Assembly (NCBI GenBank): GCA_905221605.1
Contig: CAJNDS010002109.1
Coordinates: 354,501-418,500, forward strand
From: Symbiodinium natans
Taxonomy: Eukaryota; Sar; Dinophyceae; Suessiales; Symbiodiniaceae
Direction: 5' to 3'
DNA length: 64,000 nt
Shown here: positions 25,866-53,382 of the stretch, in pieces
Layout: each line of letters opens with the position of its first letter
Position numbering within the stretch: the stretch's first letter is position 1
Notes under the pieces: generated by a model
What the model was told of the DNA's origin: nothing
Database searches by the model: none
Seen by the model: only the letters and a program-made list of their open reading frames with translations
Position numbers and translations under genes: made by a program

Positions 25866-26600
25866 AAAATAGTGTAAAGGGGGATTGACAGGTCAATGGG
25901 TTTAGGGTTGTCGTGTCTTGTTCATTCTTTGTTTTTTCTCATTGCATCCTAACTTTTCTCCATTCGTTGCACCTGTTCTGTTTTCGTTTCTATTGTCATT
26001 GACGTTCTCACCCGTTTTGTCGTATTCTTTCACGTTTTCTGTTTCATCTCATCTCATTCGTTTTCTCATTTTTCTTCACTTCTTGCTCATCTCTTTCGTT
26101 TCTTGCATAACCCTAGTATTCCAATATTTTTGTTAAGTATTTGTTCCACCTCTCACGTTTCCATTTCTCCACCTAGTACTTTATCATACATTTTGTTTCT
26201 TGTCTCCTCATTCGTTATTTTCCCCATTTTTTTAGGCTATTATTCACTCTACTTTGCTATCTCATTCATTGTAACATTATGATCTCAAATACTGTTTAGA
26301 CACTATTCAACTTTTGTTCATTACTAGGGTTATTTTCCAAGGTCAAGTCAAATTTTCCAAAATTTTCAACAAAATTGACTTTGACACCTTAATCGTTTTA
26401 TTTTCCACTCCCTACCAACATTTCTAACACAAAAATTCTTGAAGTAGATTTTTAAACATTCTTAAATCATCACAGCTCATTCGTTATTTTCCACTTATTG
26501 TTTCGGTATTCTTCCGTGGTTCATAGATTATAACATAATATTCTAAATTATTGTTCAGACATTGTTCGGAGTTTGGGCAGTTCTGGGGTTTATGTTGTTG
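25866..26600. repeat. Left inverted terminal repeat (copy B)
   Basis: Identical in layout to 11388-12122 and the inverse of 52649-53382. This is the left end that belongs with the complete element. Confidence 0.9.
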
Positions 26601-26631
26601 CTCGCGTATGCTACACGAAAACTGCGTGTTC

Positions 26632-26667
26632 AACCATTATATTATATTTAATAATAATATTATGGTT
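26632..26667. terminator. AT-rich hairpin 3' of zinc-finger gene (copy B)
   Basis: Duplicate of 12154-12189, just beyond the stop of the leftward zinc-finger gene. Confidence 0.45.
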
Positions 26668-26670
26668 GCT

Positions 26671-27146
26671 TTAATTTGTTTCGGTTTCAGGTCCTGCCTG
26701 CTGTGTTAAATTTCGTTTATGTTTGTTGGTTTCTTCATGTATTACTACCCGATATTTTCCGATGTGACATTTACAAATAGGGCATTCAATCATTTGTTGT
26801 TTATACTCTTTATTTTTCATTAGTATTTCCTCTTTGTTTTTATCATAATAACATTTATTATATTTTGCTATTGTTTCCTTATTATTTTCACGTATGCTTT
26901 CTTTTGGTCTAATACTTTATCTCTATTGTGTTCTTTGTATTCTTTCTTCCTATTTAAAACCGCTTCTCTATTATCTTGATAATATTCTTTTGCTTTTTCC
27001 CTAAGTTCTTCTCGGTGGTTCTCTCTATATCTTGCTTTTTCTTCTAAACATTGGATACATAGTTTTCTGTCAGGTCTATAGTTGTCTGGGGTTTTAGACT
27101 TTTTACATTTTGAGCATTGCTTACATTCTTGGTTCATATTTTCCAT
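26671..27146 (-). pseudogene. Zinc-finger protein gene, frameshifted (copy B)
   Basis: Duplicate of 12193-12668 with the same frame change near 26905-26918. That two separately assembled copies share it argues against a random base-calling error, although a systematic error is still possible. Confidence 0.55.
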
Positions 27147-27198
27147 ACCATATAATGGGGCGTAGTCTTTAAACCATTTTTAGGGCTCAATAAGTGTT

Positions 27199-27408
27199 GC
27201 ACTAGAGGGTTTCCCATAGGGGAAATATTTATTGCACTAGGGGGTTTCCCATAGGGGAAATATTTATTGCACTAGGGGGTTTCCCATAGGGGAAATATTT
27301 ATTGCACCTAGGCGTTTCCTATAGGGGAAATATTTATTGCACCTAGGCGTTTCCTATAGGGGAAATATTTATTGCACCTAGGCGTTTCCCACAGGGGAAA
27401 TTTTTATT
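27199..27408. repeat. 35-bp minisatellite, 6 units (copy B)
   Basis: Same unit and variant order as 12721-13105, but five of the canonical units are missing. The three variant units at the right end are retained. Confidence 0.95.
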
Positions 27409-27699
27409 GAACCTAGACACCCAACAAAATGAAAAAAACATCAATTTTGAAAATACTGATTATAGAGGACGGAATAAAAACACCTACCCGAGGGAAAATC
27501 ACAACCAAAAGCAACAAAAAAGCAAACCACCCGAAAAAACATAGGGAAAACGCTGGCAAAAACAACAGAAAAATTAAAAAACATCAATTTTGAAAATCGT
27601 ATTTCTAAAGGAGGTACTTTTGAAACACCAACCCGAGGGTCGCGTTGCAACCATAAGCCCACCAACCCCAACCCACCAACACAAAACCTAGCCAAAATA

Positions 27700-27718
27700 T
27701 ACTTAAAGAAAAACGGCC
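27700..27718 (+). promoter_or_regulatory. TACTTAAAGA promoter box of polymerase gene (copy B)
   Basis: Duplicate of the box at 13397-13415, 10 bp before ATG 27729. Confidence 0.6.
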
Positions 27719-27728
27719 TTAATAGTAT

Positions 27729-30700
27729 ATGGCTGAACCGGATTATGATTATATAATGGACTACCTAATAAGTAGTCGCATAGGCAACATAAAAACGCGT
27801 GGGAATAAAGAACTCAACAAGGTTATTATAGATGAAAAGGAATACTCTTATAACAAAGACAAACCACTTTCAAATATATTAAAAAAGAAATTAAGGACAA
27901 TATCCAAAACACAGGGTTTTAAAAGATATGTTATATTAAAGAAGGCAACAAAAGGCGTAGCAGTGAGAAAGGCTTTAGAAAAATACGCTATTAAACAAAA
28001 GCGAGGGTCACCGAAGAAACAAGTGCATTCAAAGGATACGCCAATTCATATTCAATATCCAACATAAAACTTAAAGGGTACAAAGGTTTATCATATTTAA
28101 AATATCAAGAAGGAAGACTTAAGGAGTTTTTAGGTAGAAATAACAACATGAAAATTAGAATTGACACCGAAATATCTTTTAACCATCCAGAACATGAAGA
28201 ACCCCAAAAATACAAAATAGGAAGTAGAATATACACCATCAACAACCAAGATGAACTTAAAACATCAATAGATAATATGGCTTCAGACATAGAGATTAAG
28301 GTGGAGAACTCACAGTTAAGAAAGTCGGGTTACACAATAAATAAGATTGAAAGCATTAGAATTCATTACGACAAATACAACCCAACAAGGGCAGGTAAAT
28401 ATATTGAATTACCTAAATGGTTTGCCACCAAAAAGGCCTGTATTCATATTAAAAATGATGATGATTATTGTTTCAAATATTGTGTACAATCTAGATTTTA
28501 TGAGATAATGAAGAAAGACCACCCCGATAGAATGTATCATTACAACAAGCTAAAAGAAAATGATAATTTAATAAACTGGGATGGTGTAGAATTTCCAGCA
28601 TCAGAGGAAGACATTGACACCTTTGAAAAAGTAAATTCTAACACAATATCAGTTAATGTTTATGGCATTGACCCTAACGGAACAAATAGCATAGTAGTTC
28701 ATAAAGTTACTAAAATTAAAAATCCTTCATGTCATGTTAATTTGTTGTTATTAGAAGAAGCAAATAATAGCCATTATGTTTTAATAAAAGATTATAGTCG
28801 TTTAATGGGGTCACAAACAAACAAACACAAGGAAAAACTATTTCATTGTAGATACTGTCAACATGGTTTTAACAAAGAAACACTACTAACAAATCATTTA
28901 TTAAAAGGATGCATGGCACACGAAATACAACAAATAGTGTTGCCAAAAGAGGGCACAACAATGTATTTTCAGAAACATTACAAAAAGCTTAAATGTCCTT
29001 ATGTTATTTATGGTGACTTTGAGTGTCTCACAGCACCATCATCAGAAGGAATAAAGGGTAGCTATCAGCATCATAAACCATGTGGTTTTATGCTTAATGT
29101 TGTTAACAGTATAACCAACGAAGCAACGCCTTATTTATATAGAGGTGAGGATTGTATGGATAAATTTTGTACAACTATTAATAAAATAAAAGAGGAGATT
29201 ATGGAAACGATGAAGGAGAAGAAAGAAATTCAATGGACAACAAAACAAAAGGAAGAACATAAAAAAGAGAAACATTGTTTTATATGTGGTGGTAAATTTG
29301 ACCATCAAAACCCAGCAAAAACAAAAGTAGCCGACCACTGTCATTTTACAGGACAATATAGAGGAGCGGCACACAACAAGTGTAATTTAGATTATTGTTT
29401 CAAATACTTTAGAATTCCAGTGTTTTTTCATAACCTAAAAAACTACGATGCTCACTTAATAATATCGCATATGGAGAAGTTAAATAAGAACAAGGACAAG
29501 ATAAGCGTAATAGCCCAGAACAGTGAGAAGTTTGTAACGTTTACGGTTGATAACTTAGAGTTTAAAGATAGTTTTAGTTTCTTATCATCATCATTAGATA
29601 AACTGGTTAAACTCACAAAATATGAAGAAAATTAGAAGAGAAAAGATTGGCAACATGGTTTCAAATTTAGTAAGAAAAACGTATATGTAGATGATGATAA
29701 TGATTTAGATTTATTAACAGATAAGGGCGTTTATCCATATGACTATTTTACTGACTTTAACAAGTTTAATGAAACATCCCTACCTAATATAGAAGACTTT
29801 TACAGTAAACTAACAGAAGAAGGGATTAAACAGTCAGAATATGATAGAGCAAACAAGATATGGGAGCATTTTAAGATAAAAAACCTAGGACAGTATCATG
29901 ACCTATATTTACAAACTGACGTTTTATTATTAACAGACGTTTTTGAAAACTTTAGAAAGACTTGTTTAGTAGATTATGGATTAGACCCAGCTCACTATAT
30001 AACATTACCTAATTTTAGTTGGGATGCCATGTTACTTAAAACAGGAATATCACTAGAACTAATTTACGACGAAGACATTTACAAAATGGTTGAAAATGGT
30101 TTACGTGGTGGCATGTGTCAGGTATCAATGAGAAAAGCAGAAGCAAATAATCCTTATATGGGAGAACAGTATGATGAACATAAAGAAACGTCATACATTA
30201 ATTATTTAGATGCTAATAATTTATATGGTCTGGCAATGTGTCAGAAATTACCATACAAAGATATTAAATTTGTTAATAACATCAATAACTTTACAGAAGA
30301 AGAGATATTGAATTATGACAACGGCGAGGAAGGTTACATATTAGACGTTGATTTAGAATATCCTAAAGAATTACATGATAAGCATATTGATTACCCACTA
30401 GCACCGCAGATTATGAGTGTTACATCAGATATGTTAAGCGATACCCAGAAAGAGATATATAAGACATACCACGAGAACAAGGATGCAAAAGATGAACAAA
30501 CAAAAAAGTTGATATTAAATGTTATGGACAAGACTAATTATATATTACATATTAATATTCTGAAGTTCTATTTGAAACAAGGGTTGAAGCTCAAAAAGGT
30601 CAATAGGGTAATAGCATTTAAACAGAAGGAATGGTTAAAGCCGTGGATTGATTTTAACACGGAGAAGAGGAAACAAGCTACATCGGACTTTGAAAAGGAC

Positions 30701-31525
30701 AAATATAAATTAATGAATAACGCAGTATATGGTAAGACGATGGAAAATGTAAGGGAACACATTAATTTTGAATTAGTAGATACTCAAGAGAGATACGCCA
30801 AATGTGTTAATAATCCTACATTCAAACACAGGCACATAATTAATGAAAATCTAGTAGGAGTGGAGAAGTTGAAAGAAAAGGTCAAATTAAATAAACCTAT
30901 ATATGTGGGAATGAGTATATTAGACTTATCTAAATTACATATGTATTCATTTTATTATGACGTCCTAAAAGAAAAGTATGATGAAAATGTTAGGCTAGTT
31001 TACACAGACACTGACAGTTTTGTTATTCATACTAAAACTAAAGATGTATATGATGATTTTAATGACATCAAAGACCAAATGGATTTTAGTGGTTATGATA
31101 AGAAGCACAAATGCTATGACCCGACCAATAAGAAAGTATTAGGTAAGTTTAAGGACGAGTGCGATGGAAAAATAATAACACATTTCATAGGACTGAAACC
31201 AAAATCATACGCGTTTAAGGTATTCAATGAAGTCAAGGAAGAAAAGAAATCAAAAGGAATAGTTAAACATAAAGTTAAGAAAGAATTGACATACAAACAA
31301 TATGAAGACACACTCATAGAAAACAGAAGTGACACAGTTAGTTTCAACACAATAAGAAGCAAGAACCACAGCATATATACAATAAATCAAGTGAAACAAT
31401 GCTTATCGTCATATGACAACAAACGTTATTATATAAATAGTGTTGAGAGTGTTCCGTATGGGCATTACACCCCCGGGCCGAAAGTTTCGACCCACGGCAC
31501 ATGTTGGATGGCACGCAGACAGTGA
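27729..31525 (+). pseudogene. polB: Protein-primed family B DNA polymerase, broken (copy B)
   Basis: Same structure as copy A: N-terminal segment 27729-28067, main frame to an in-frame TAG at 29633-29635, and resumption in the same frame to 31525, where the tail is satellite-derived after about 31467. It differs from copy A by five residues in the translated segments (Pro/Ala, Val/Phe, Asn/His and Asn/Lys between about 28390 and 28555, and Arg/Leu at about 30965). All lesions are shared with copy A. Confidence 0.9.
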
Positions 31526-34500
31526 AGGCTCCCGCGGAGTAGCGGAGTGCCGAAAAGTAGCGTTTTCCCTACGCCTGCTAGCGGAGAAATTAATACCCCG
31601 TTTTGAAAATATAGTTAGTAGCTCCGGAGGAGGCCCCCAGCCCCATTGTGTCAGGAGTCTATGGGGAAGAGGGCGGGGTATGGGTGTAAGAACCCCAAGA
31701 TGTTGGTGGGTCGAACTATCGGCCCGGCGCAGCATGGGTTTTGGTGGCCAGAGTTTGCTTCAAAAAGATGCCACCTTTTTGAAGTTTGGGCAAGACCAGT
31801 GCTCCCCGAACGCATGCTGCGCCAGGCCGAAAGTTCGTCGCACTCACAACATAAGACAAGAAGACAGCAGAAAACCCCCTCTCCCCCTTAGACTCCTGCA
31901 CTCCAAGAGCGCCGGGTCCTCCTCCGGAACATTAAAAATAGTATAAGTTTATTCCAGGGGATTAATTCCTCCGCTGGCCAGGCTAGAACAAAACCATGAT
32001 GCAATACTCTGCTGTCCTCCGTCAACTTTGTCTTGTCAAGAGCGACGAAACTTTATTCCTGGTCATGCTCCTCACAAGGCCGTTTCCACTAAAAAATCTG
32101 GCGTCCAGGACCTGGCCGGCGTCAGCATCGCGCAGAGCATGCGTTTTTGCGGCTAGAGTCTGCTTCAAAAAGTGCTTCCGGAAGGCAGCATGCGTTTTGG
32201 TCGCCAGAGTCTGCTTCACAAGTGCTTACGGACAGCTGCGTGCGTTTTGGTGGCCAGAGTCTGCTTGAAAAAGTGCTTACGGAAGGCAGCATGCGTTTTG
32301 GTGGCCAGTGTCTGCTTCAAAAAGTGCTTACGGAAGGCACCCCCGGGCCGAAAGTTTCGACCCACGGCACATGTTGGATGGCATGCAGACAGTGAAGGCT
32401 CCCGCCGAGTAGCGGAGTGCCGAAAAGTAGCGTTTTCCCTACGCCTGCTAGCGGAGAAATGAATACCCCGTTTTGAAAATATAGTACTATAGTAGCTCCG
32501 GAGGAGGCCCCCAGCCCCATTGTGTCAGGAGTCTATGGGGAAGAGGGTGGGGTATGGGTGTAAGAGCCCCAAGATGTTGGTGGGTCGAACTATCGGCCCG
32601 GCGCAGCATGCGTTTTGGTGGCCAGAGTTTGCTTCAAAAAGATCCCACCTTTTTGAAGTTTGGGCAAGACCAGTGCTCCCCGAACGCATGCTGCGCCAGG
32701 CCGAAAGTTCGTCGCACTCACAACGTAAGACAAGAAGATAGCAGAAAACCCCCTCTCCCCCTTAGACTCCTGCACTCCAAGAGCGCCGGGTCCTCCTCCG
32801 GAACATTAAAAATAGTATAAGTTTATTCCAGGGGATTAATTCCTCCGCTGGCCAGGCTAGAACAAAACCATGATGCAATACTCCGCTGTCCTCCGTCAAC
32901 TTTGTCGAGTCTTGTCAAGAGCGACGAAACTTTATTCCTGGTCATGCTCCTCACAAGGCCGTTTCCACTAAAAAATCTAGCGTCCAGGACCTGGCCGGCG
33001 TCAGCATCGCGCAGAGCATGCGTTTTTGTGGCTAGAGTCTGCTTCAAAAAGTGCTTCCAGAAGGCAGCATGCGTTTTGGTCGCCAGAGTCTGCTTCAAAA
33101 GTGCTTACTGACAGCAGCATGCGTTTTGGTGGCCAGAGTCTGCTTGAAAAAGTGCTTATGGATGCGTTTTGGTGGCCAGAGTCTGCTTCAAAAAGTGCTT
33201 ACGGAAGGCACCCCCGGGCCGAAAGTTTCGACCCACGGCACATGTTGGATGGCATGCAGACAGTGAAGGCTCCCGCGGAGTAGCGGAGTGCCGAAAAGTA
33301 GCGTTTTCCCTACGCCTGCTAGCGGAGAAATTAATACCCCGTTTTGAAAATATAGTACTATAGTAGCTCCGGAGGAGGCCCCCAGCCCCATTGTGTCAGG
33401 AGTCTATGGGGAAGAGGGCGGGGTATGGGTGTAAGAACCCCAAGATGTTGGTGGGTCGAACTATCGGCCCGGCGCAGCATGCGTTTTGGTGGCCAGAGTT
33501 TGCTTCAAAAAGATGCCACCTTTTTGAAGTTTGGGCAAGACCAGTGCTCCCCGAACGCATGCTGCGCCAGGCCGAAAGTTCGTCGCACTCACAACATAAG
33601 ACAAGAAGACAGCAGAAAACCCCCTCTCCCCCTTAGACTCCTGCACTCCAAGAGCGCCGGGTCCTCCTCCGGAACATTAAAAATAGTATAAGTTTATTCC
33701 AGGGGATTAATTCCTCCGCTGGCCAGGCTAGAACAAAACCATGATGCAATACTCCGCTGTCCTCCGTCAACTTTGTCGAGTCTTGTCAAGAGCGACGAAA
33801 CTTTATTCCTGGTCATGCTCCTCACAAGGCCGTTTCCACTAAAAAATCTAGCGTCCAGGACCTGGCCGGCGTCGGCATCGCGCAGAGCATGCGTTTTTGT
33901 GGCTAGAGTCTGCTTCAAAAAGTGCTTCCAGAAGGCAGCATGCGTTTTGGTCGCCAGAGTCTGCTTCAAAAGTGCTTACTGACAGCAGCATGCGTTTTGG
34001 TGGCCAGAAAAAGTCTGCTTCAAAAAGTGCTTACGGAAGGCACCCCCGGGCCGAAAGTTTCGACCCACGGCACATGTTGGATGGCATGCAGACAGTGAAG
34101 GCTCCCGCGGAGTAGCGGAGTGCCGAAAAGTAGCGTTTTCCCTACGCCTGCTAGCGAGAAATTAATAGAAAATATAGTTAGTAGCTCCGGAGGAGGCCCC
34201 CAGCCCCATTGTGTCAGGAGTCTATGGGGAAGAGGGCGGGGTATGGGTGTAAGAACCCCAAGATGTTGGTGGGTCGAACTATCGGCCCGGCGCAGCATGC
34301 GTTTTGGTGGCCAGAGTTTGCTTCAAAAAGATCCCACCTTTTTGAAGTTTGGGCAAGACCAGTGCTCCCCGAACGCATGCTGCGCCAGGCCGAAAGTTCG
34401 TCGCACTCACAACATAAGACAAGAAGACAGCAGAAAACCCCCTCTCCCCCTTAGACTCCTGCACTCCAAGAGCGCCGGGTCCTCCTCCGAAACATTAAAA

Positions 34501-36854
34501 ATAGTATAAGTTTATTCCAGGGGATTAATTCCTCCGCTGGCCAGGCTAGAACAAAACCATGATACAATACTCCGCTGTCCTCCGTCAACTTTGTCGAGTC
34601 TGGTCAAGAACGACGAAATTTTATTCCTGGTCATGCTCCTCACAAGGCCGTTAGCGTCCAGGACCTGGCCGGCGTCAGCATCGCGCAGAGCATGCGTTTT
34701 TGTGGCTAGAGTCTGCTTCAAAAAGTGCTTCCAGAAGGCAGCATGCGTTTTGGTCGCCAGAGTCTGCTTCAAAAGTGCTTACTGACAGCAGCATGCATTT
34801 TGGTGGCCAGAGTCTGCTTGAAAAAAGTGCTTACGGATGCATTTTGGTGGCCAGAGTCTGCTTCAAAAAGTGCTGACGGAAGGCACCCCCGGGCTGAAAG
34901 TTTCGACCCACGGCACATGTTGGATGGCATGCAGACAGTGAAGGCTCCCGCGGAGTAGCGGAGTGCCGAAAAGTAGCGTTTTCCCTACGCCTGCTAGCAG
35001 AGAAATTAATACCCCGTTTTGAAAATATAGTACTATAGTAGCTCCGGAGGAGGCCCTCAGCCCCCAAGATGTTGGTGGGTCGAACTATCGGCCCGGCGCA
35101 GCATGCGTTTTGGTGGCCAGAGTTTGCTTCAAAAAGACCCCACCTTTTTGAAGTTTGGGCAAGACCAGTGCTCCCCGAACGCATGCTGCGCCAGGCCGAA
35201 AGTTCGTCGCACTCATAAGATAAGACAAGAAGACAGCAGAAAACCCCCTCTCCCCCTTAGACTCCTGCACTCCAAGAGCGCCGGGTCCTCCTCCGGAACA
35301 TTAAAAATAGTATAAATTTATTCCAAGGGATTAATTCCTCCGCTGGCCAGGCTAGAACAAAACCATGATGCAATACTCCGCTGTCCTCCATCAACTTTGT
35401 CGAGTCTTGTCAAGAGCGACGAAATTTTATTCCTGGTCATGCTCCTCACAAGGCCATTTCCACTAAAAAATCTAGCGTCCAGGACCTGGCCGGCGTCAGC
35501 ATCGCGCAGAGCATGCGTTTTTGCGGCTAGAGTCTGCTTCAAAAAGTGCTTCCGGAAGGCAGCATGCGTTTTGGTCGCCAGAGTCTGCTTCACAAGTGCT
35601 TACGGACAGCTGCGTGCGTTTTGGTGGCCAGAGTCTGCTTGAAAAAGTGCTTACGGAAGGCAGCATGCGTTTTGGTGGCCAGTGTCTGCTTCAAAAAGTG
35701 CTTACGGAAGGCACCCCCGGGCCGAAAGTTTCGACCCACGGCACATGTTGGATGGCATGCAGACAGTGAAGGCTCCCGCGGAGTAGCGGAGTGCCGAAAA
35801 GTAGCGTTTTCCCTACGCCTGCTAGCGGAGAAATTAATACCCCGTTTTGAAAATATAGTACTATAGTAGCTCCGGAGGAGGCCCCCAGCCCCATTGTGTC
35901 AGGAGTCTATGGGGAAGAGGGCGGGGTATGGGTGTAAGAACCCCAAGATGTTGGTGGGTCGAACTATCGGCCCGGCGCAGCATGCGTTTTGGTGGCCAGA
36001 GTTTGCTTCAAAAAGATGCCACCTTTTTGAAGTTTGGGCAAGACCAGTGCTCCCCGAACGCATGCTGCGCCAGGCCGAAAGTTCGTCGCACTCACAACGT
36101 AAGACAAGAAGATAGCAGAAAACCCCCTCTCCCCCTTAGACTCCTGCACTCCAAGAGCGCCGGGTCCTCCTCCGGAACATTAAAAATAGTATAAGTTTAT
36201 TCCAGGGGATTAATTCCTCCGCTGGCCAGGCTAGAACAAAACCATGATGCAATACTCTGCTGTCCTCCGTCAACTTTGTCTTGTCAAGAGCGACGAAACT
36301 TTATTCCTGGTCATGCTCCTCACAAGGCCGTTTCCACTAAAAAATCTGGCGTCCAGGACCTGGCCGGCGTCAGCATCGCGCAGAGCATGCGTTTTTGCGG
36401 CTAGAGTCTGCTTCAAAAAGTGCTTCCGGAAGGCAGCATGCGTTTTGGTCGCCAGAGTCTGCTTCACAAGTGCTTACGGACAGCTGCGTGCGTTTTGGTG
36501 GCCAGAGTCTGCTTGAAAAAGTGCTTACGGAAGGCAGCATGCGTTTTGGTGGCCAGTGTCTGCTTCAAAAAGTGCTTACGGAAGGCACCCCCGGGCCGAA
36601 AGTTTCGACCCACGGCACATGTTGGATGGCATGCAGACAGTGAAGGCTCCCGCGGAGTAGCGGAGTGCCGAAAAGTAGCGTTTTCCCTACGCCTGCTAGC
36701 GGAGAAATTAATACCCCGTTTTGAAAATATAGTACTATAGTAGCTCCGGAGGAGGCCCCCAGCCCCATTGTGTCAGGAGTCTATGGGGAAGAGGGCGGGG
36801 TATGGGTGTAAGAACCCCAAGATGTTGGTGGGTCGAACTATCGGCCCGGCGCAG
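31468..36854. repeat. ~0.85-kb satellite array, copy B (6 units plus a 270-bp remnant)
   Basis: Units begin at 31468, 32338, 33209, 34041, 34884, 35712 and 36586, with lengths of 828-874 bp; one unit near 35060 lacks about 60 bp. The array starts inside the last codons of PolB and stops after GGCCCGGCGCAG at 36854, where AT-rich viral sequence resumes. The same sub-repeats are present as in copy A, but the variant order differs from the first unit on. Confidence 0.95.
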
Positions 36855-37174: not shown

Positions 37175-37192
37175 TATTATTAGATGATAATA

Positions 37193-44170: not shown

Positions 44171-44357
44171 CAAATAATTTAAAGTTATATGAAATTTCTT
44201 TACTATTTTTCTTTTTGCTTTTAACTTCCTTAACTATATTATTATCGTTTTCATCTTCTACTAACTTTCGTATCTCTTCATAACTGTTCTGTTTAAACTT
44301 CTTCTCCTTCGGTTGCTTCTCCAGTTTCTCGTAAGTTGTCGCTTTGTAATGGTACAT
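44166..44357 (-). CDS. Small basic protein, 63 residues (uncertain)
   Basis: A Lys/Glu-rich ORF whose first 65 bp overlap the end of the GIY-YIG gene in another frame. The overlap and composition leave two readings: a small separate gene, or a displaced C-terminal extension of the nuclease. No motif recognised. Confidence 0.3.
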   Translation of the reverse strand: MYHYKATTYEKLEKQPKEKKFKQNSYEEIRKLVEDENDNNIVKEVKSKKKNSKEISYNFKLFD

Positions 44358-44943
44358 TATTACTATTACTTAGATTATTTAATGCTTCTTGGTGTTTTTT
44401 AGTTCTTTCGTGGCGTCGTATGTCTTCCTTTCTTACTTCACAACCACAACTACATATTATTTTAAGTTTTCTTCTTTGAATTACATCGTCTCTTTGTCTA
44501 TACTCTTGGTGATGTTTTTTATATTGCTCTGGCTTTTTATCATAACATTTCTTTTTACTTTCGGAAACCTTTTCTGGGTTTTCTTCACGATATTTTTTAC
44601 ACCGTTCCTTGTTTTCTTCTTTATGTGTCTCCCTGTATTCCTGATTGCTTCTACCTGCTATTCTATCGTTTAATGTTCCAAGCTTTCTTATATATTGTCC
44701 TTCCATCGCTTGTAGTTGTTCTTTGTTGTCGCAGGGACATTCACAAAGTAATTCTATATAAAAGTTTTCAATTCCCAACTCTCTCATTCTCTGGTAAATC
44801 TTGTAGTCAGAACTTCTTGATGATTTCATATCATATCTGTGTTTTGCCATTCTTTGAGATAGTTTAGAACAAGTACTACCAATGTAGCAATCGCTATTGA
44901 CTGTGTTTAAAACCTTGTAAATCTTACCATTTTTATAATCCAT
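44293..44943 (-). CDS. GIY-YIG endonuclease with C-terminal zinc finger
   Basis: 216 residues. The N-terminal GIY-YIG domain shows KIY at 7-9, CYIGS at 19-23, LSQR with the catalytic-type Arg at 31, and a later acidic residue in MEGQYI (about 80-85). The middle region is Lys/Glu-rich with repeated YREENPEKVSE-like segments. The C-terminal finger is CSCGC...HERTKKHQ. Such free-standing nucleases are common in NCLDVs, PLVs and virophages; a homing or DNA-processing role is known for the family, but its task here is not evident. It appears intact. Confidence 0.88.
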   Translation of the reverse strand: MDYKNGKIYKVLNTVNSDCYIGSTCSKLSQRMAKHRYDMKSSRSSDYKIYQRMRELGIENFYIELLCECPCDNKEQLQAMEGQYIRKLGTLNDRIAGRSNQEYRETHKEENKERCKKYREENPEKVSESKKKCYDKKPEQYKKHHQEYRQRDDVIQRRKLKIICSCGCEVRKEDIRRHERTKKHQEALNNLSNSNNVPLQSDNLRETGEATEGEEV

Positions 44944-44978: not shown

Positions 44979-45623
44979 TTATGTTTCAAATTGTTCCATA
45001 AATTCTTCCTGCGTTATGGGTAAATTTCCTTCTTTATTATGAACATTGCCTATATCTTGATGTGAATGATTTTGTAAAGGGTCTAAAGTTCCCTTATTTA
45101 ATGTTATACTGCCTCTATCAAACATTGATACGGGGTCTCCTGCTTGTCTCAAACGAAGGTTAGTCCCCGTGTCTTCTGGTTTCTGATTTGACACAAAAGG
45201 AGAACCGTAAGACCTTGAACGAAAGATATTTCCATAATCATTATTTATTTGTTGTCCTACTGCACTGCCTAAGGAATGTGAAATAATATCAGTAATACCT
45301 GTAAGTTTTTTACCATCAACTTCTATAGTTCCATCTTTAATAAATTTATCAACATCTTTATATCTTTTCGTGTTTCTTGTTTGATACAAAGGCAATTTTA
45401 CATCGTCCCAAAAATCAATGGGGTCTTTAGTTCCAGCAATGTATAACTGACTACCATTTCTATATATTCCGTCAGGGTTTTCGTATGCTAATTTAAGTCC
45501 TTGACTATCTGTGAGAAAAGACCAATTACCTGCTAACTCTTCCTTAACATAATCACTTATCTTGTTTCTTGTGTTAGGTGCTTCGTACGGTATTCCTTCA
45601 TTTCTTCGTTTATGTTTGTGCAT
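44979..45623 (-). CDS. Lipase-like alpha/beta hydrolase (class 3 type)
   Basis: 214 residues. The order of features fits a compact class-3-type lipase: a beta-strand LYIAGTKDPIDFWDD at ~60-74, nucleophile elbow SHSLGS with Ser117 (SxSxG instead of the usual GxSxG), Asp163 in AGDPVS, and His186/188 in NHSH. RSYGSPFVS (about 137-145) matches the strand following the elbow in lipases. Lipase-like genes occur in several PLVs and could act on host lipids during infection; that role is inference. It is divergent from the penton gene across 40 bp, so the two may share a bidirectional promoter. Intact. Confidence 0.6.
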   Translation of the reverse strand: MHKHKRRNEGIPYEAPNTRNKISDYVKEELAGNWSFLTDSQGLKLAYENPDGIYRNGSQLYIAGTKDPIDFWDDVKLPLYQTRNTKRYKDVDKFIKDGTIEVDGKKLTGITDIISHSLGSAVGQQINNDYGNIFRSRSYGSPFVSNQKPEDTGTNLRLRQAGDPVSMFDRGSITLNKGTLDPLQNHSHQDIGNVHNKEGNLPITQEEFMEQFET

Positions 45624-45663: not shown

Positions 45664-46503
45664 ATGCTTAAGTTTAAGAAAGTATATATTGACAGTTCAT
45701 ATAAAGTTAGTGGCACTCCATCTGAATTTACAATTGACTTACCTGAAACTGTTCAGTCAGAGGATAATATGCTATGTCAAATACACGAGGTAAGCATTCC
45801 TCATTCTTGGTACTCAATAAACAACACAAACAATAATATTTATTGGAGACATCAAGTTATTCCACCAGGTGTAATAGCAGGTATTACTTATCGTAAAGTA
45901 ACCATCCCTGAAGGTAACTATACAGCAGTTGATTTAGCACAAACAATACAAATAGCAATCAATTTATTGGTTGATACAGGGGACAGACCTAATACATATT
46001 CTTTAAGTTACAACACATCAACTAATAAGTTTACAATCAGTTCTAATTACTCAACTGTTATTTTTGTTCTTCTTCTGACTGATGGAGAAGTAGCTCCGTT
46101 AGCAGGTTCATTTTCAGACCCTGTTGATGTTAATAATTTAAGTTCAATGAACAGAGTAATCGGTAACACAACACCAGCAACTGACGCTTATACTAATGTA
46201 GCACCTTATACAACTAATTTTGTAGATTTAGTGCCCTTCAAGAGTTTGTATTTACATTGTAATGAAATAAGCAACTACAACCAATTAACAGTAGCGGGTA
46301 ATTCATCAATAGTAAAGAAAGTAAATGTAACAGTTCCCCATCTCGGGGTAATTAATGATAATGAGTTAAGCAGTGTTGATTATATTGATGTGAGTGGAAA
46401 AATGCTACGTCGGTTGAATTTTAGACTTACTAATAATTTGAATCAGGTAGTGAATTTAAACGATGTTGACATCTCCTTCACTTTAACATTTTTTAGAGGA
46501 TAA
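45664..46503 (+). CDS. Minor capsid (penton-like) protein
   Basis: 279 residues, beginning MLKFKKVYIDSSYKVSGTPSEFTIDLP, then CQIHEVSIPHSWYSINNTNN and a YRKVTIPEGNYTAVDLAQTI segment. This series is characteristic of the minor capsid/penton proteins of Polintons and PLVs (VYIDS...EF...IPHSWY...N..N). Mostly beta, with the C-terminal strand ISFTLTFFRG. It forms the capsid vertices in the family. The first gene of a long rightward cluster; intact. Confidence 0.8.
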   Translation: MLKFKKVYIDSSYKVSGTPSEFTIDLPETVQSEDNMLCQIHEVSIPHSWYSINNTNNNIYWRHQVIPPGVIAGITYRKVTIPEGNYTAVDLAQTIQIAINLLVDTGDRPNTYSLSYNTSTNKFTISSNYSTVIFVLLLTDGEVAPLAGSFSDPVDVNNLSSMNRVIGNTTPATDAYTNVAPYTTNFVDLVPFKSLYLHCNEISNYNQLTVAGNSSIVKKVNVTVPHLGVINDNELSSVDYIDVSGKMLRRLNFRLTNNLNQVVNLNDVDISFTLTFFRG

Positions 46504-46540: not shown

Positions 46541-47197
46541 ATGAGTGCTGAAGCAGTTGAAGAGGTTAAAAATGAAGAAGCGACCGAAACAGTGGAAAAT
46601 GAAGTTATTGAAACAACCAACGAACAACAACCCACTGAACTAATCAAACAAGAAGAGACAATAACACCACCTGTTGAACAAACAACAGAACAAACGCAAC
46701 CAACACCAAAAGCAAAAGCAAAAGCGAAAGCAAGAACAGTTAAGGTAGTGGAGCTGGTTGAATGTCAGGCTTGTAATAAAAAGATGTTACCCAAGAGCCT
46801 AAGAAACACCCACCCACATTATTGTAAAGGACAACCAACCGAAACATTGCCGGTAAATAGACAAAAGGCAAGTTATGGGTCAAAAGTTGAACAAAAACTC
46901 AGAAAAGAAATAGAGGAAGAGATGAAAGCAAAATATGAAAACCAAGAAAACGATAAAAACGCTCAAAATGTTAAACATGAAGTTGTACAATATAGTCAAC
47001 CTATTGAAGTAAAAACTAAAGCAAAGCCAAGTGGTCGCGAAGCACGCGAGGCGACTGAGTCGCGTCCAGTTGTGCCAAGTGTGCCAAAACAATTAACAGC
47101 AAGAGAATTATTAGAAGCATCCTACAACGAAATAAGAAAAGCAAAGAGAGAGGAACATATACAAAAAATAGACAGTTTTAAATCAGAAATGTTTTAA
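46541..47197 (+). CDS. Lys/Ala-linker zinc-finger protein
   Basis: 218 residues. The N-terminal ~60 residues are Glu/Thr/Gln-rich and probably disordered, followed by a PKAKAKAKARTVK linker, then a finger CQACNKKM...HPHYC (about 79-98). A second Lys-rich linker and a helical C-terminus (ARELLEASYNEIRKAKREEH) follow. The fibre tail also carries a PKAKPKAKSRK string, so a shared linker is notable. TATTAATA precedes the ATG. Function unknown; nucleic-acid or scaffold binding is possible. Confidence 0.6.
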   Translation: MSAEAVEEVKNEEATETVENEVIETTNEQQPTELIKQEETITPPVEQTTEQTQPTPKAKAKAKARTVKVVELVECQACNKKMLPKSLRNTHPHYCKGQPTETLPVNRQKASYGSKVEQKLRKEIEEEMKAKYENQENDKNAQNVKHEVVQYSQPIEVKTKAKPSGREAREATESRPVVPSVPKQLTARELLEASYNEIRKAKREEHIQKIDSFKSEMF

Positions 47198-47263
47198 TAT
47201 ACATATACTTATATGAAGAGTGATATTGAAAGGGTGGATATAGTAAGAAATGAATTATGAAAG

Positions 47264-47566
47264 ATGAAAACATTTGACATAGATGAGAAATGTTGCATAA
47301 TTGAAAGTTATTGTTTTCATTATTTAACAAATGTTAAGGGCTATGATGTCAATGATGAACTTATGAAACAGTTAGTCGTTTTGCAAGCATGTATTAGAAC
47401 TAAAAGACCTGTGGCAAAACAGCTCGCTCCACTAAACGAACTGAAAGAGCATTTAAACAATAACCAACATGAGTTTCTTGATGAAGACACTGTAAAAATG
47501 TTGTTAAATGAGATTGACAAATATGTTATTGATTTTCCTGAAGAAGCACTTCAGTTCTTTAAATAA
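47264..47566 (+). CDS. Hypothetical helical protein, 100 residues
   Basis: Helix-rich with an N-terminal CCIIESYC cluster and an acidic C-terminus. No recognised domain. Followed after 11 bp by a perfect AT palindrome (47578-47616) that overlaps the next start codon. Confidence 0.5.
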   Translation: MKTFDIDEKCCIIESYCFHYLTNVKGYDVNDELMKQLVVLQACIRTKRPVAKQLAPLNELKEHLNNNQHEFLDEDTVKMLLNEIDKYVIDFPEEALQFFK

Positions 47567-47577
47567 AGAACGAAATA

Positions 47578-47616
47578 ATTATTAATAATATTTTTTTATC
47601 TAATATTATTAATAAT
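47578..47616. terminator. AT palindrome overlapping next start codon
   Basis: Perfect 15-bp arms (ATTATTAATAATATT and its complement) with a 9-bp T-rich loop. The right arm includes the first two bases of the ATG at 47615, so the TATTAATA start context and the palindrome are the same sequence. Confidence 0.55.
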
Positions 47617-47935
47617 GAGTATGTTTAAGAGCAAACCAGAGTTCAAAAGAATGCCGCAGGTTCAACAATACTATGATATAGATGATACAATCGGAGTAGC
47701 AAGTAGGAGGAAATATTTAGAAGATTTAAAATTAAGAATAGAGGAAGCAGAAAACAGAGGTAAAAATGTAAGATTAAGAAATGATTGGGTGCAGCATCAA
47801 AAGAAAAGTTTATACCAAGGTGAATTAGATGATATAAACAGACAGTTAGAGCGTCCAATGATGCCAGTGAGAACAAAGGAGGAACTAAGGAAGCGTCAAG
47901 ATGACCTTAAAACAATCATGAAAGAAATAATTTAA
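47615..47935 (+). CDS. Hypothetical basic helical protein, 106 residues
   Basis: Highly charged, with heptad-like helices (RRKYLEDLKLRIEEAENR and later RTKEELRKRQDDL). It is followed after 19 bp by the next gene in the same direction. No recognised family; a minor virion or scaffold protein would fit its position. Confidence 0.5.
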   Translation: MSMFKSKPEFKRMPQVQQYYDIDDTIGVASRRKYLEDLKLRIEEAENRGKNVRLRNDWVQHQKKSLYQGELDDINRQLERPMMPVRTKEELRKRQDDLKTIMKEII

Positions 47936-47954
47936 ATCTAACTTTAAATATAAT

Positions 47955-48953
47955 ATGATTCAAACATTAAAATCAGAATTAAAATTAAGACCTACGTATG
48001 ATGAACTGGTTGGTATGATTGAAAGTCAAGGTGACCCTAACCGCCCATCAATAGAACAAGTAATTGACAGAAAAGCAACATTATTTAGAAACAATCAGTT
48101 CGGAAGTCAATTTGATAATCTTGATTTTTTCGGATTGAAGAAGCAAGAAGAAAACAAAGTTAAAAACGAATTGAGACAAGCACAGTTGAGACAAACGGCA
48201 ATTGCTACTGGTGCATCTATGGGAGTTCTAACAAGTGACGTCGGTTCAAGTGGTTTCACTACTCCTTTACTGGATACACCGTCAGGAGAAGAATATCTCG
48301 GACACTTAGACATAGAACGAATAAAGGCGGAATTATCAGAATTAGAGATAGGACAACAACAAGCACGACAAGCAACATCATCAACATCAAGAAATAATTT
48401 AGATGAAGCACACAGACAATCCTTACCTACTGGGGTTGATTTAAGTCAACCCGCTAGTAGCAGTCAACCAGCAACCGTACCAGCACAACAACCAGCAGAG
48501 AGTTCAGACGAGGAACTGATACCAGCTGATGATACAAGTGGAGGAACAAGACCTTTTCAAAGAGCCATTCAATATTGGAACAACGACATTGATGAAATAA
48601 GACAAAATCAAAATGTCACCTATGAGGATTTAATGTTTCAACTTCATGCAAGAGGTCAATTGTCTGAAGCCATTCAACAAAGAGTAGAAGAAATGCCAGA
48701 TGACGATACTAGAAAGATATACCTTCTTAGAATTATTGAAAAACTTATAGGTTCTGGCGGTGAGGATAACGAGTGGCAGATAGCAGTAAATCAGGAATTA
48801 TTCAAAAAGAGATTAAAAGACTGGCAAGAAATGAGAAAACCGAAACAAGGAGTTGTTAAAAGTTTTCTATCAAGTGCAGGTTCTGCAGTTGCTGAAGCAG
48901 AAAAACAAGCACTTATCGCAGGTGCACAAAATGCGATAATGAGTTTAATATAA
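47955..48953 (+). CDS. Hypothetical protein, 332 residues
   Basis: Begins MIQTLKSELKLRPTYDELVG; the next gene begins with the related phrase RLKPTYEEIARE. The middle (about 140-200) is Ser/Gln/Pro-rich and likely disordered. The C-terminus has an Ala/Gly-rich hydrophobic helix (SSAGSAVAEAEKQALIAGAQ), as in some virion core or membrane-active proteins. No catalytic motif. It lies in the structural cluster, so a virion protein is plausible. Confidence 0.55.
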   Translation: MIQTLKSELKLRPTYDELVGMIESQGDPNRPSIEQVIDRKATLFRNNQFGSQFDNLDFFGLKKQEENKVKNELRQAQLRQTAIATGASMGVLTSDVGSSGFTTPLLDTPSGEEYLGHLDIERIKAELSELEIGQQQARQATSSTSRNNLDEAHRQSLPTGVDLSQPASSSQPATVPAQQPAESSDEELIPADDTSGGTRPFQRAIQYWNNDIDEIRQNQNVTYEDLMFQLHARGQLSEAIQQRVEEMPDDDTRKIYLLRIIEKLIGSGGEDNEWQIAVNQELFKKRLKDWQEMRKPKQGVVKSFLSSAGSAVAEAEKQALIAGAQNAIMSLI

Positions 48954-48976
48954 TAATAATATCAGTATAAGTATAC

Positions 48977-49725
48977 ATGTTAAGATTGAAACCCACTTAT
49001 GAAGAAATAGCAAGGGAAGCAAGAACAAAACGATTAAGAATATTACCAGAAAAGGAAAGAAGAACACAGCAAGGAATATTATTAGATGATGTTGATTTCA
49101 ATGATTTTGATTTAGATAATTATGATAAGAAGATGATAATAATGAATGAAAACCCCCAGAAGGGAACACAAACTGATATGTTCTTTAACTCTTCATCTTC
49201 TTCTTCATCTAGTAAAAGCTCCGATAAATCTGAAATGGAACAAATAGAACAGTTGAAGGAAGAATTAATCAATATATCAAGCAAACCGAGTAGTGAAGCA
49301 GAACAAGAAAAAGAACAACCGGAAAAACAGAAGTCATTGTTAAGACGAATGTTAGATAGTATGTTTGACATTGATGGAGGTAGTGTTCCATCTTCTAGAA
49401 TAAGTAGTGCATCTGAGGATAATCAACCAGTAGAAACAAAGAAAAGCAACACACCACCAGTATTTAGTTCATCATCATCAGCATCTTCATCGCGCGATTC
49501 ACGCCCAGTATTATTGCCAGTTGAAACACAACCCACGCCACCAATTAGTTTACACTCATCACCACCAATTAGTGTACACTCTCACCACCAGTGAGTGTAC
49601 GAAGTTCTCGTTCTAACACAATAGAATATGTACCTAGTGCTAGTTCAAGTTCTAGCAATAGGACAGTGCAATATCTAAGTTCAGGGAGTTCCCGACGAAC
49701 ATCACACGTATCAATATCTTCATAA
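48977..49725 (+). pseudogene. Ser-rich protein, probable frameshift near C-terminus
   Basis: Starts MLRLKPTYEEIAREARTKR, paralogous in its first 15 residues to the preceding gene. It has a poly-Ser stretch near residue 70-80 and a Pro/Ser-rich tail. The annotated-style frame ends at 49594, but the same Ser/Arg-rich composition continues in a second frame to TAA at 49723-49725. The frames meet inside a short CACTCA/TCACCACCA repeat near 49576-49585, where one base seems to be lost. Function unknown. Confidence 0.5.
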
Positions 49726-49746: not shown

Positions 49747-50049
49747 ATGGTAGAAATAGTAATTAGAAGAAGTAATAATAAAGATAAAAAATTTGATGTA
49801 AGAATAGACAATAGAAAAACTGTATCATTTGGTGCTAAAAACTATGAACATTTTACGGAAGGGCATCTGGACAATAAACGAAGACAAAGTTATGTAGCCA
49901 GACATGGAAGTGGTAATCAAGATTGGAAAGATTATGAAACGGCTGGGTTCTGGTCGTATCATCTTCTTTGGAGGAAGCCTACTTATAAAGAAGCGATAAA
50001 CACTATTGAACGAGAGTTTCCTAAGTTGAGAATAACAATGAATAAATGA
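49747..50049 (+). CDS. Conserved small viral protein, DUF5754-like
   Basis: 100 residues. The pattern KKFDVRID...TVSFGAKNYEHFTEG, RRQSYVARHG, W, then TAGFWSYHLLWRKPT resembles a small family recurring in NCLDVs and PLVs that I recall as DUF5754; the name should be confirmed by a profile search. Function unknown. It overlaps the following frame by a few bases only if the upstream ATG at 50046 is used. Confidence 0.65.
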   Translation: MVEIVIRRSNNKDKKFDVRIDNRKTVSFGAKNYEHFTEGHLDNKRRQSYVARHGSGNQDWKDYETAGFWSYHLLWRKPTYKEAINTIEREFPKLRITMNK

Positions 50050-50088
50050 ATATTTACTTTAAAGATTTTTGGGTTCAAAAAACAAAAA

Positions 50089-50107
50089 TACTTAAAGAAA
50101 TATTCAC
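50089..50107 (+). promoter_or_regulatory. TACTTAAAGA promoter box
   Basis: TACTTAAAGAAATATTCAC, 13 bp before the ATG at 50121. The first ten bases match the other boxes, and the downstream CG-containing part is not conserved here. Confidence 0.45.
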
Positions 50108-50120
50108 ATTTATAATTAAA

Positions 50121-50477
50121 ATGAGTAGCTATTTTGTTGGTAATGATGGAATACAAACTCAAATAAGTTCAGATTTATTTGCTGTTATGTGGAACAGCAT
50201 AGAAGAAAATGAAGAACAGGAAGTAAAATCACAAAAGGACAAAAAGAAAGAACATAATGATAGACTAAATAAACTAAACAGGGAAAACGGTTATTTTAAG
50301 AAATATTTCAAAGAAAATGATAAATCTTTTGAGTGTGATAGATGTGGATGTATTATTAGTAGTTCAACTGACAAGTCAAAGCATATGAAAACAAATAAAT
50401 GTAAAATGCTATATAAAGAAAGACAAGAAAAAGAGATGGAAGACAAAATAATAAGGAAAATATTGTATGGTAATTAA
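50121..50477 (+). CDS. Zinc-finger protein, 118 residues
   Basis: I chose the ATG at 50121 over an upstream in-frame ATG at 50046 because the promoter box at 50089 lies between them. A basic middle (KSQKDKKKEHNDRLNKLNRE) precedes a finger CDRCGC...KHMKTNKCK, then a charged helix. The finger layout matches the recurrent one in the 40085 and 44293 proteins. Probable nucleic-acid binding; function unknown. Confidence 0.6.
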   Translation: MSSYFVGNDGIQTQISSDLFAVMWNSIEENEEQEVKSQKDKKKEHNDRLNKLNRENGYFKKYFKENDKSFECDRCGCIISSSTDKSKHMKTNKCKMLYKERQEKEMEDKIIRKILYGN

Positions 50478-50480
50478 AAC

Positions 50481-50517
50481 ATAATTAATATTAACTTTTC
50501 TACTTAATATTAATTAT
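50481..50517. terminator. AT palindrome before integrase gene
   Basis: Perfect 14-bp arms ATAATTAATATTAA and TTAATATTAATTAT with a 9-bp loop (CTTTTCTAC). The right arm runs into the ATG at 50516, as at 47578. Confidence 0.55.
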
Positions 50518-51489
50518 GAGTAAAGAACAGGATGAAATTCTGGAGAGAATATACTATGACCTTGAGCGTGGTTATGGTTCTGTTCGTAGTCTTTATGAAG
50601 AAGCAAATAAGGACGCTTCGGCAGAAGCCTCGCGAGCTAATCGCGTCGGTGCAGGTGTTAGTTTAAACTATGTAAAAGACTGGGTCAAAAAACAAACTAT
50701 AAATCAAAGAAGAAATTATAAAAAAGTATAACAGTTATTCAGCACCATATGCTAGGGCAGTTTATCAGTTGGACATCATGGACATGGTAAGCTTAATGAA
50801 GGACACAGACACTTTTAAGGAAGAGTATAAAAGGTATGCTTTGTTGTGTATTGACATATTTAGCAAGAAGATGCACATTGTACCCATGCAAAACAGAGAC
50901 GGTGAAACGGTGTTTGATGCATATATGGAATGCTTTAAAGTTTTAGGATATCCAGAGTCAATTTATACTGATGATGATGGTGCTTTTAATTATAGAAAGT
51001 TACAAGACTGGTTGAAGGGCGAGGGTATAAATCATGTAGTAACTTTGACACATGCTAACGTAGCAGAGAGAGCCATCAGGACGATAAAAAAGATGATTGG
51101 AGACAGAGCATTAGTGACTAAGGGTGCGTGGACAATTTTACTAAAACCAGTGCTTGATAAGTACAATAAAACCATGAAACACTCAACAACGGAAATGACA
51201 CCGAACGAGGCACACAAAGATGACAACGCTGTGAATGTTAAGGCTAATTCTATATTGAAAGAAAAAATATTTAAGAAAGTATCCGAAAGTTGAAGTTGGT
51301 GATAAGGTTAAAATATTTGTAAAAGGAAAAGGTAACTACACGTCAAGAAAGGAAACGAGAAACCAATGGAGTGAAAGAACTTATGAGGTTAAGGAGGTAG
51401 GAAGAGATGGACAGCTAAACAAGCATTATATTCTAGAGGGATTGAGTAAAAAATATAACAGACATGAAATTTTGTTAGTGGATGATTAA
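50516..51489 (+). pseudogene. Retroviral-type integrase (rve), two frameshifts
   Basis: The gene spans three frames. 50516-50725 gives the N-terminal segment ending NQRRNY. 50726-51262 gives the catalytic core: D in CIDIFSKK, D in YTDDDGAF and E in NVAERAIRTIKK (about residues 29, 68 and 100 of the ORF starting at 50769). 51268-51489 gives the C-terminal DNA-binding part (VEVGDKVKIFVKG...HEILLV). Both junctions are six-base A-runs (50720-50725 and 51262-51267), each consistent with one extra A. Between them the core is open. This enzyme inserts Polintons into host DNA. The D-D-E spacing (about 32 residues) is slightly short of the usual D35E. Confidence 0.85.
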
Positions 51490-51491
51490 AG

Positions 51492-51510: not shown

Positions 51511-51530
51511 CTAATATAGTAAGTGAGATA

Positions 51531-52121
51531 ATGAGCTTATTCAAATTTGATGAGAAGTGTTATTCGTGTGAATGTCACAGAAATAGAAAGGCAGTTGTTT
51601 TAAATATAGTGTTTGATGCCACCGTTGTGAATAACATCGTATCTTGTTTGTGCTGTTATAGCTGTTCCAAAATGAAAAAGTGTGAGTTGGAATATGAAAA
51701 GGAAGAATATAAAGCATATAGTAGGGAGGCAAAGTTGTTTCATTTTATATACAATCATCTAGACACCAAATATAACAGACTAAAAACATTGAAAGATAAG
51801 AAAACCTATATGAAAGAATTGATTAGAAAGTCGGAAAGCTGCAAAAAAGGGATGCTTGTAAAGTTTGTTAATGACACTTATTATTTGAAAGGGTTTGATG
51901 AATATAAACAATGGTTTTCTGAAGCATGTCCTTATAAAGGGTATTCTGTTTTTGATGAAACTGACCTAGAAGATGAGTTGTTTTATTATAGAAATGATGG
52001 AATGCCTTTCTATGATGTTTTAAAAAATCTATTCTATCAATACATAAAACATCATGCTATCGGATATAAAGACTACTTTGATTATATTGAAGTTATACAG
52101 TGGGTGCAACATATTTTTTAA
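51531..52121 (+). CDS. Cys-rich hypothetical protein, 196 residues
   Basis: The first 50 residues carry CYSCECH and CLCCYSCSKMKKC clusters, probably a zinc-binding module. The remainder is Lys/Tyr/Phe-rich and helical, without a recognised domain. It has its own TACTTAAAGA box and a hairpin 8 bp after the stop. Expression with the polymerase class of genes is inferred from the shared box. Confidence 0.55.
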   Translation: MSLFKFDEKCYSCECHRNRKAVVLNIVFDATVVNNIVSCLCCYSCSKMKKCELEYEKEEYKAYSREAKLFHFIYNHLDTKYNRLKTLKDKKTYMKELIRKSESCKKGMLVKFVNDTYYLKGFDEYKQWFSEACPYKGYSVFDETDLEDELFYYRNDGMPFYDVLKNLFYQYIKHHAIGYKDYFDYIEVIQWVQHIF

Positions 52122-52128
52122 GTGAAGC

Positions 52129-52164
52129 AACCATAATATTATTATTAAATATAATCTAATGGTT
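52129..52164. terminator. AT-rich hairpin shared with left arm
   Basis: Near-palindrome AACCATAATATTAT...ATGGTT, inverse of 12154-12189 and 26632-26667. About 47 bp around it (including GCAACCATAATATTATTATT) are an inverted repeat of the left arm, although the contiguous terminal repeat stops at 52649. Confidence 0.55.
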
Positions 52165-52179
52165 GAATGATCCTAAAAG

Positions 52180-52198
52180 TACTTAAAGACAAAACGCC
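52180..52198 (+). promoter_or_regulatory. TACTTAAAGACAAAACGCC promoter box
   Basis: Same 19-mer as at 51492, followed by TTAGCATATTAAGTGAAAT and the ATG at 52218. Both boxes start 38-39 bp from the start codon. Confidence 0.7.
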
Positions 52199-52217
52199 TT
52201 AGCATATTAAGTGAAAT

Positions 52218-52595
52218 ATGGATTATTTAAATCTGAACTCATATAAGATCCAAATGAAGTATATCAAGAAGATATATGAAATTAAATTAAATGAAGTAGA
52301 TTATTCAAATAAAATTAAGGAGTTATGTAAGTTGCTTAAAGTTTATGAAAGTGTCTTTGACGAAGAAGATGTCCTGAATGTTAGGCGTGATATATCTATT
52401 TTAGAAGGTAAGATTGAGGAAGATAAACAATTAATTGAAAAATATTCAGAACTGATTGAGAATAGTGAAATACTATGTCAGAATGGAGGAGACAAGGAAG
52501 CTAAATATCTAGATAAAAAACCTAAACATGCTGTCAAATGGATTAATATTAGTATTCAACAAATAGAAGAAGATTACAATGATTTATTAAAATAA
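52218..52595 (+). CDS. Coiled-coil hypothetical protein, 125 residues
   Basis: Almost entirely helical and charged, with heptad-like periodicity (NKIKELCKLLKVYESVFDEE, EGKIEEDKQLIEKYSELIE). No zinc or catalytic motif. Last gene before the right terminal repeat. It lies between two segments that are both repeated in the left arm, so it may have been inserted into an originally longer terminal repeat. Confidence 0.5.
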   Translation: MDYLNLNSYKIQMKYIKKIYEIKLNEVDYSNKIKELCKLLKVYESVFDEEDVLNVRRDISILEGKIEEDKQLIEKYSELIENSEILCQNGGDKEAKYLDKKPKHAVKWINISIQQIEEDYNDLLK

Positions 52596-52648
52596 CAATG
52601 GCAACTATCATATAATATTATGTTAAATTATATTATATTATCGTTGAA

Positions 52649-53382
52649 CAACAACAAAACCCCAGAAAAGCCCAAACTCCGAATAAGGTCCGAACCAATG
52701 TTCTACCATATGATGTTATAATCTATGAACCACGGAAGAATACCGAAACAAGAAGTGGAAAATAACGAATGAGCTGTGATGATTTAAGAATGTTTAAAAA
52801 TCTACTTCAAGAATTTTTGTGTTAGAAATGTTGGTAGGGAGTGGAAAATAAAACGATTAAGGTGTCAAAGTCAATTTTGTTGAAAATTTTGGAAATTTGA
52901 CTTGACCTTGGAAAATAACCCTAGTAATGAACAAAAGTTGAATAGTGTCTAAACAGTATTTGAGATCATAATGTTACAATGAATGAGATAGCAAAGTAGA
53001 GTGAATAATAGCCTAAAAAAATGGGGAAAATAACGAATGAGGAGACAAGAAACAAAATGTATGATAAAGTACTAGGTGGAGAAATGGAAACGTGAGAGGT
53101 GGAACAAATACTTAACAAAAATATTGGAATACTAGGGTTATGCAAGAAACGAAAGAGATGAGCAAGAAGTGAAGAAAAATGAGAAAACGAATGAGATGAG
53201 ATGAAACAGAAAACGTGAAAGAATACGACAAAACGGGTGAGAACGTCAATGACAATAGAAACGAAAACAGAACAGGTGCAACGAATGGAGAAAAGTTAGG
53301 ATGCAATGAGAAAAAACAAAGAATGAACAAGACACGACAACCCTAAACCCATTGACCTGTCAATCCCCCTTTACACTATTTC
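52649..53382. repeat. Right inverted terminal repeat
   Basis: Inverse of 25866-26600 (and of copy A). The outer part is nearly identical; the inner 80 bp, next to AACAACAAAACCCC, are diverged. The 72-codon ORFs inside each repeat are chance frames of low-complexity Ser/Phe/Leu composition. Confidence 0.9.

Follow-up and report, generated by a model that had tools for sequence, protein, structure and literature searches.

A probably inactive Polinton-type virus integrated in telomere-repeat-rich DNA

Bellas et al. 2023 describe thousands of capsid genes of Polinton-type viruses across protist genomes (PMC10120064); in that account the dinoflagellate Polarella glacialis, an example of a genome with endogenous viruses of the Dino group, has 2,535 major capsid proteins (MCPs), and an MCP belongs to the Dino cluster if it joins at BLASTP 1e-4. 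A capsid maturation protease is present in nearly all Polintons, according to PMC4642659. Here we describe an element in a 64,000-nucleotide stretch of Symbiodinium natans contig CAJNDS010002109.1 (positions 354,501 to 418,500; the window). We read it as an integrated, probably inactive Polinton-type virus of 27.5 kb with 736-bp terminal inverted repeats (TIRs), accompanied by an extra left half that is most likely an assembly overlap or second haplotype. The probability that we assign to this reading is roughly 0.85.

A single, near-complete element spans 25867-53381, and its boundaries are sharp in both GC and telomere-repeat content. The GC fraction is 0.49-0.52 in the flanks versus 0.31-0.32 within the element, where a nested array stands at 0.53. 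TTTAGGG/CCCTAAA occurs at 20.4 (1-8691), 15.9 (23168-25866), and 18.3 (53382-64000) per kb in the flanks and at 0.36 (25867-31467), 0 (array), and 0.06 (36855-53381) within the element. An initial annotation had proposed telomere-type host DNA and interval ends that proved correct to within 1 base. The alignment of the TIR arms covers 738 columns, of which 13 are mismatches and three are single-base gaps:

25867..26603, + strand: left TIR, 97.8% identical to the right arm
52646..53381, - strand: right TIR, paired with the left arm

C-rich tracts adjoin both element ends and would obscure a target-site duplication of 5-6 bp, a Polinton trait.

The terminal repeats, protein-primed polymerase B (pPolB), integrase, packaging ATPase, capsid genes, and accessory genes that had been named for this interval were all recovered, the repeats by alignment and the genes through Pfam, motifs, or predicted folds. 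Those that bear on capsid and packaging are as follows:

38364..39155, + strand: A32-type packaging ATPase, open (Pox_A32 2.4e-10)
40289..42613, - strand: S74 fibre in two pieces, with an in-frame TGA at 42074-42076 (S74 1.6e-10)
42668..44109, - strand: MCP in two frames (43954-44109 and 42668-43963), from tblastn of relatives P0001, P0006, P0049, and P0103, and fold
45664..46503, + strand: minor capsid (penton-like) protein (mCP), open, 279 amino acids, from predicted fold

The capsid and ATPase profiles were where the initial assignment could have failed. The ATPase scored 40.8 bits against the Pox_A32 cut-off of 22.8, and an MCP model of low to middling confidence, built from relative P0001, weakly matched double-jelly-roll capsids. 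An endogenous element of the Polinton/Polinton-like virus (PLV) supergroup is supported, with a predicted double-jelly-roll MCP. The mCP model, also of low to middling confidence, is penton-like. Both capsid proteins were identified by predicted fold alone. Database relatives of the MCP numbered 557 at E≤1e-3, and the best 120 MCP clusters together comprise 1,341 member sequences. Because so many relatives are already in databases, the element belongs to a known, heavily expanded kind and is not something new. The mCP family numbers 341 database proteins, the window's own counted. The fibre matched phage tail fibre families (phrog_1980 at 3e-17). Phage records held nothing matching the MCP or polymerase piece 2, and bacterial and archaeal genomes probed with the MCP gave 41 pattern matches, none of them a relative.

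Gene linkage is also suggested among relatives. In P0103 an MCP continues into an S74 fibre end, which fits adjacency of MCP and fibre in relatives too. Contigs listed for relatives of the MCP, mCP, and lipase-like protein have lengths in common: at least 11, at least 14, and at least 26 between pairs of lists and at least two across all three. These are lower bounds from the best 120 entries per list, the 26 include the window's own contig, and a few short lengths may coincide by chance. The window's own mCP and lipase-like protein are also listed on a 35,786-base contig. The unbroken stretch here is longer, and the contig may therefore come from a different assembly of the same or a near-identical copy. 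IMG/VR scans gave a single relative, a 40% ATPase on locus L001. On that 84-kb contig the interval 9533-10724 holds the related ATPase together with a weak mCP match (E 2.9e-4) that sits just upstream of it in opposite orientation; an ORF (open reading frame) at 14079-14756 looks integrase-like by eye and had no tblastx match to the window.

The polymerase is interrupted, and its 3' end abuts the nested array:

27726..28067, + strand: probable 5' polymerase segment in a different frame (three-frame reading by eye; the weakest frame assignment)
27995..29635, + strand: polymerase B piece 1, with ExoI, ExoII, and an endonuclease VII-like stretch; in-frame TAG at its end (29633-29635)
29636..31467, + strand: polymerase B piece 2, with PolA, PolB, and PolC motifs; continues into the array
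31468..36854, no strand assigned: nested GC-rich (53%) tandem array, period of about 870 bp, 51-bp sub-repeats, inverted-repeat-like ends

Five motifs in order suggest that this is a family B polymerase of the protein-primed type. Four of the five (ExoI, ExoII, PolA, PolB, and PolC) occur nowhere else in the window, and in 200 shuffles of the 5.8 kb they were found in 13, 1, 0, 0, and 0, with patterns composed while the sequence was in view. The pieces had no match to Pfam PF03175 (piece 1 was run on a second copy, 13692-15329); many PLV polymerases are likewise described as unmatched in PMC12220804.

The initial annotation was right that a pPolB is recognisable and overlooked the array. The polymerase frame stops where this 5.4-kb tract starts. 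The two ends of the tract resemble an inverted repeat across some 40 bp, with a score of 45; random pairs within the array had a mean of 15 and a maximum of 60, and 3 of 500 reached 45. A scan of three array ORFs found no reverse transcriptase, which favours a transposon of satellite-like or non-autonomous type. GC-rich or retrotransposon insertions within PLVs are reported in PMC12220804 and PMC10120064. An RNA gene in the array was considered and rejected: Rfam gave three sub-threshold matches only (one long noncoding RNA family, E 0.027). At gathering scores there was no Rfam match in the window, and no tRNA either.

The integrase lies near the right end:

50516..51489, + strand: rve integrase in three frames (50516-50731, 50703-51293, and 51259-51489); rve 1.3e-8 for the middle piece

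The middle piece scored 35.4 bits against the Pfam cut-off of 32.6, and the outer pieces, assigned by eye, are likely the N- and C-terminal parts in the other two frames.

By gene content, then, the element appears to have the Polinton configuration, and it fits the Polinton definition quoted in PMC7805220. The odds are about even, however, that the virus is of PLV rather than Polinton lineage and gained its pPolB and rve integrase by gene exchange, as described for the M. neglectum element in PMC4642659. Pfam recognised no protease in the 26 of 30 ORFs scanned, where a divergent one could escape, and the fold matches of both MCP and mCP include Tetraselmis viridis virus S1 proteins. However, the MCP matches in BFVD are mixed, including an adintovirus, giant viruses, and virophages as well, and no sequence-level match to any named PLV MCP was obtained. 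An S74 fibre, a lipase, and GIY-YIG are common among PLVs in the accounts of PMC12220804 and PMC4642659. This also fits a PLV lineage, but fibre and lipase, once put forward in combination with the rve integrase as informative for placing the lineage, say little precisely because they are so common.

The element is single, as the initial gene map had it, but a duplicated left part had gone unnoticed:

8692..23067, + strand: second assembly copy of left flank, left TIR, polymerase, and array
23068..23167: 100-N scaffold gap, the sole N run in the window
27197..27416, no strand assigned: 35-bp minisatellite, 6.3 copies here and 11.1 in the second assembly copy (12719-13106)

Positions 8692-23067 duplicate 23168 to about 37000, comprising flank, TIR, minisatellite, polymerase, and array. 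With a gap-permissive aligner, the 1,330 bp inward from the TIR are identical between copies. The next 4.05 kb or so, which hold the polymerase regions, differ by five substitutions and one 7-base gap. The flank copies have 13 mismatches and 36 gap bases, confined to 9 of about 54 50-bp bins; this supersedes an initial MAFFT alignment with 50 mismatches. The arrays differ by whole units and by 57 mismatches in one alignment. Several differences between copies adjoin homopolymers. A suspected 97-nucleotide inversion between the flank copies was ruled out, as the segment is an inverted repeat that occurs in both.

The extra left half most probably reflects two contigs, or two haplotypes, whose overlap was left unmerged in scaffolding. 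Two separate viruses side by side are less likely because the second left half ends at the 100-N gap. Also unlikely is a true tandem duplication that arose in the host when the tandem array underwent unequal recombination or template switching. Tandem arrays can promote such events, and the unequal minisatellite, the polymerase substitutions, and the unit-sized array differences would all suit one. However, the first copy stops within its array exactly at the gap, the other begins straight after it, in flank, and the 1,330 bp show no difference. A scaffold gap within such an element can thus yield an apparent second copy, which is relevant to copy counts.

The duplicated assembly also bears on whether the virus is intact. 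The polymerase is broken by a stop codon and a probable 5' frameshift, the MCP by a frameshift, the fibre by a stop codon, and the integrase by two frameshifts, whereas the ATPase, mCP, and lipase-like genes are open. An alternative genetic code was set aside, because one TAG, one TGA, and frameshifts make up the interruptions. Because four key genes are interrupted, the present copy is probably inactive. What weighs against this is a report that premature stops in one such element vanished upon error correction (PMC10120064); therefore, "decayed" in the initial annotation may overstate the case. The stops and frameshifts might instead be errors of assembly or consensus, in which case the element would be an intact provirus with the potential for activity. 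Every broken gene has just one or two interruptions, the polymerase motifs and integrase core are retained, the remaining genes are open, and homopolymers adjoin several of the copy differences noted above. We nevertheless find this doubtful, since both assembled copies share the polymerase TAG and the probable 5' frameshift, and in each of them the polymerase frame ends at the array.

The remaining features are accessory genes and ORFs with no function assigned:

36953..38161, - strand: small ORFs, function unassigned (36953-37174, 37193-37456, and 37763-38161)
39152..39610, - strand: ORF, function unassigned
44293..44943, - strand: GIY-YIG homing endonuclease (Pfam 1.5e-6; grpIintron_endo 2.6e-15)
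44979..45623, - strand: lipase-like protein, open (S117, D163, and H186)
46541..49594, + strand: five ORFs, function unassigned (starts 46541, 47264, 47615, 47955, and 48977)
49747..50049, + strand: DUF5754 protein (Pfam 5.7e-13)
50046..50477, + strand: ORF, function unassigned
51531..52595, + strand: two ORFs, function unassigned (51531-52121 and 52218-52595)

The family of the lipase-like protein numbers 498 database proteins, its own counted. Its S117, D163, and H186 would form a Ser-Asp-His triad, a trait of class 3-type lipases. These residues are unvarying in all 24 aligned proteins, and the combined motif is present in 117 of 120. A Pfam lipase matched none of the 24, and PDB searches gave no lipase. 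Because there is no Pfam lipase match, the name comes from the motif alone.

Interstitial TTTAGGG-type tracts crowd the host DNA across more than 20 kb (1-11388 and 53382-64000). Perfect tracts of at least three units, in both orientations, number 21 in the first interval and 19 in the second, and no published genome sharing this dense pattern appeared among the papers listed in literature searches. A PPR-like host ORF lies at 5828-6970, with Pfam matches under the cut-off. The dinoflagellate spliced leader had no match in the window with up to three mismatches allowed. TTTAGGG is the dinoflagellate type of telomere repeat and a plant type too (PMC11453091). Judged by these features, the host is likely a protist, and the dinoflagellate genome suggested in the initial annotation is a guess. 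The TIR contains a GGGTTTAGGGTT stretch, and C/G homopolymer tracts adjoin both ends. These points might suggest that viruses of this lineage target telomere-type and G-tract DNA, an idea that we regard as very improbable. If it were true, interstitial telomere-type repeats would be safe landing sites where hundreds of copies accumulate and genes are spared.

The window itself shows the repeats, the boundaries, the order of the genes, the interrupted frames, and the array nested at the polymerase 3' end, and a life cycle can be proposed around them. Its own rve integrase likely brought the element into host DNA rich in telomere repeats, at a C-rich tract. Polymerase B would copy the element from its ends, by protein priming if it behaves as its family does. 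The capsid into which the A32 ATPase would package the DNA is predicted to be of the double-jelly-roll type and would also carry the penton, the S74 fibre, and the lipase-like protein. Judging from the families, the capsid would assemble, the fibre would mediate attachment, and the lipase-like protein would aid entry, a role proposed for lipases in PMC4642659. After insertion, the polymerase, MCP, fibre, and integrase were likely damaged and the host-like GC-rich array likely came in, and the present copy would now move only with proteins supplied by intact relatives. The result is a bounded gene map of one copy from a Polinton-type lineage, and sequenced DNA holds many members of the MCP family of this lineage.

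Among known systems, the protist Polinton-configuration elements described in PMC7805220 are alike in pPolB, RVE, MCP, mCP, ATPase, a size range of 15-40 kb, and TIRs; here, in contrast, no protease was recognised. The Dino group endogenous viruses of dinoflagellates, as PMC10120064 portrays them, share the GC shift versus host, TIRs, and high lineage copy number, and the telomere type of the host would fit. The cryptophyte PLVs of PMC12220804 share S74 fibres, GIY-YIG, a GC drop, nested GC-rich mobile elements, and, in some, rve. However, their nested elements are described as encoding reverse transcriptase, whereas the array here is satellite-like with inverted-repeat-like ends. OmPLV of Oxyrrhis marina resembles our element in its size of about 25 kb, low GC, A32 ATPase, GIY-YIG, fragmented polymerase genes, and TIRs (PMC12721341). 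It differs, in the gene description given there, in having a tyrosine recombinase and a helicase-pPolB fusion and in lacking both rve and a recognised minor capsid gene. Here rve is present, and the OmPLV-lineage traits (tyrosine recombinase and helicase SF1-pPolB fusion) were not found, as Pfam matched neither a helicase nor a tyrosine recombinase in the 26 of 30 ORFs scanned or the two polymerase pieces. Mavirus-like virophages differ in that no protease was recognised here and no close sequence relation was found, but they share pPolB and the rve integrase (per PMC4642659), and their penton and MCP folds resemble those predicted for the element.
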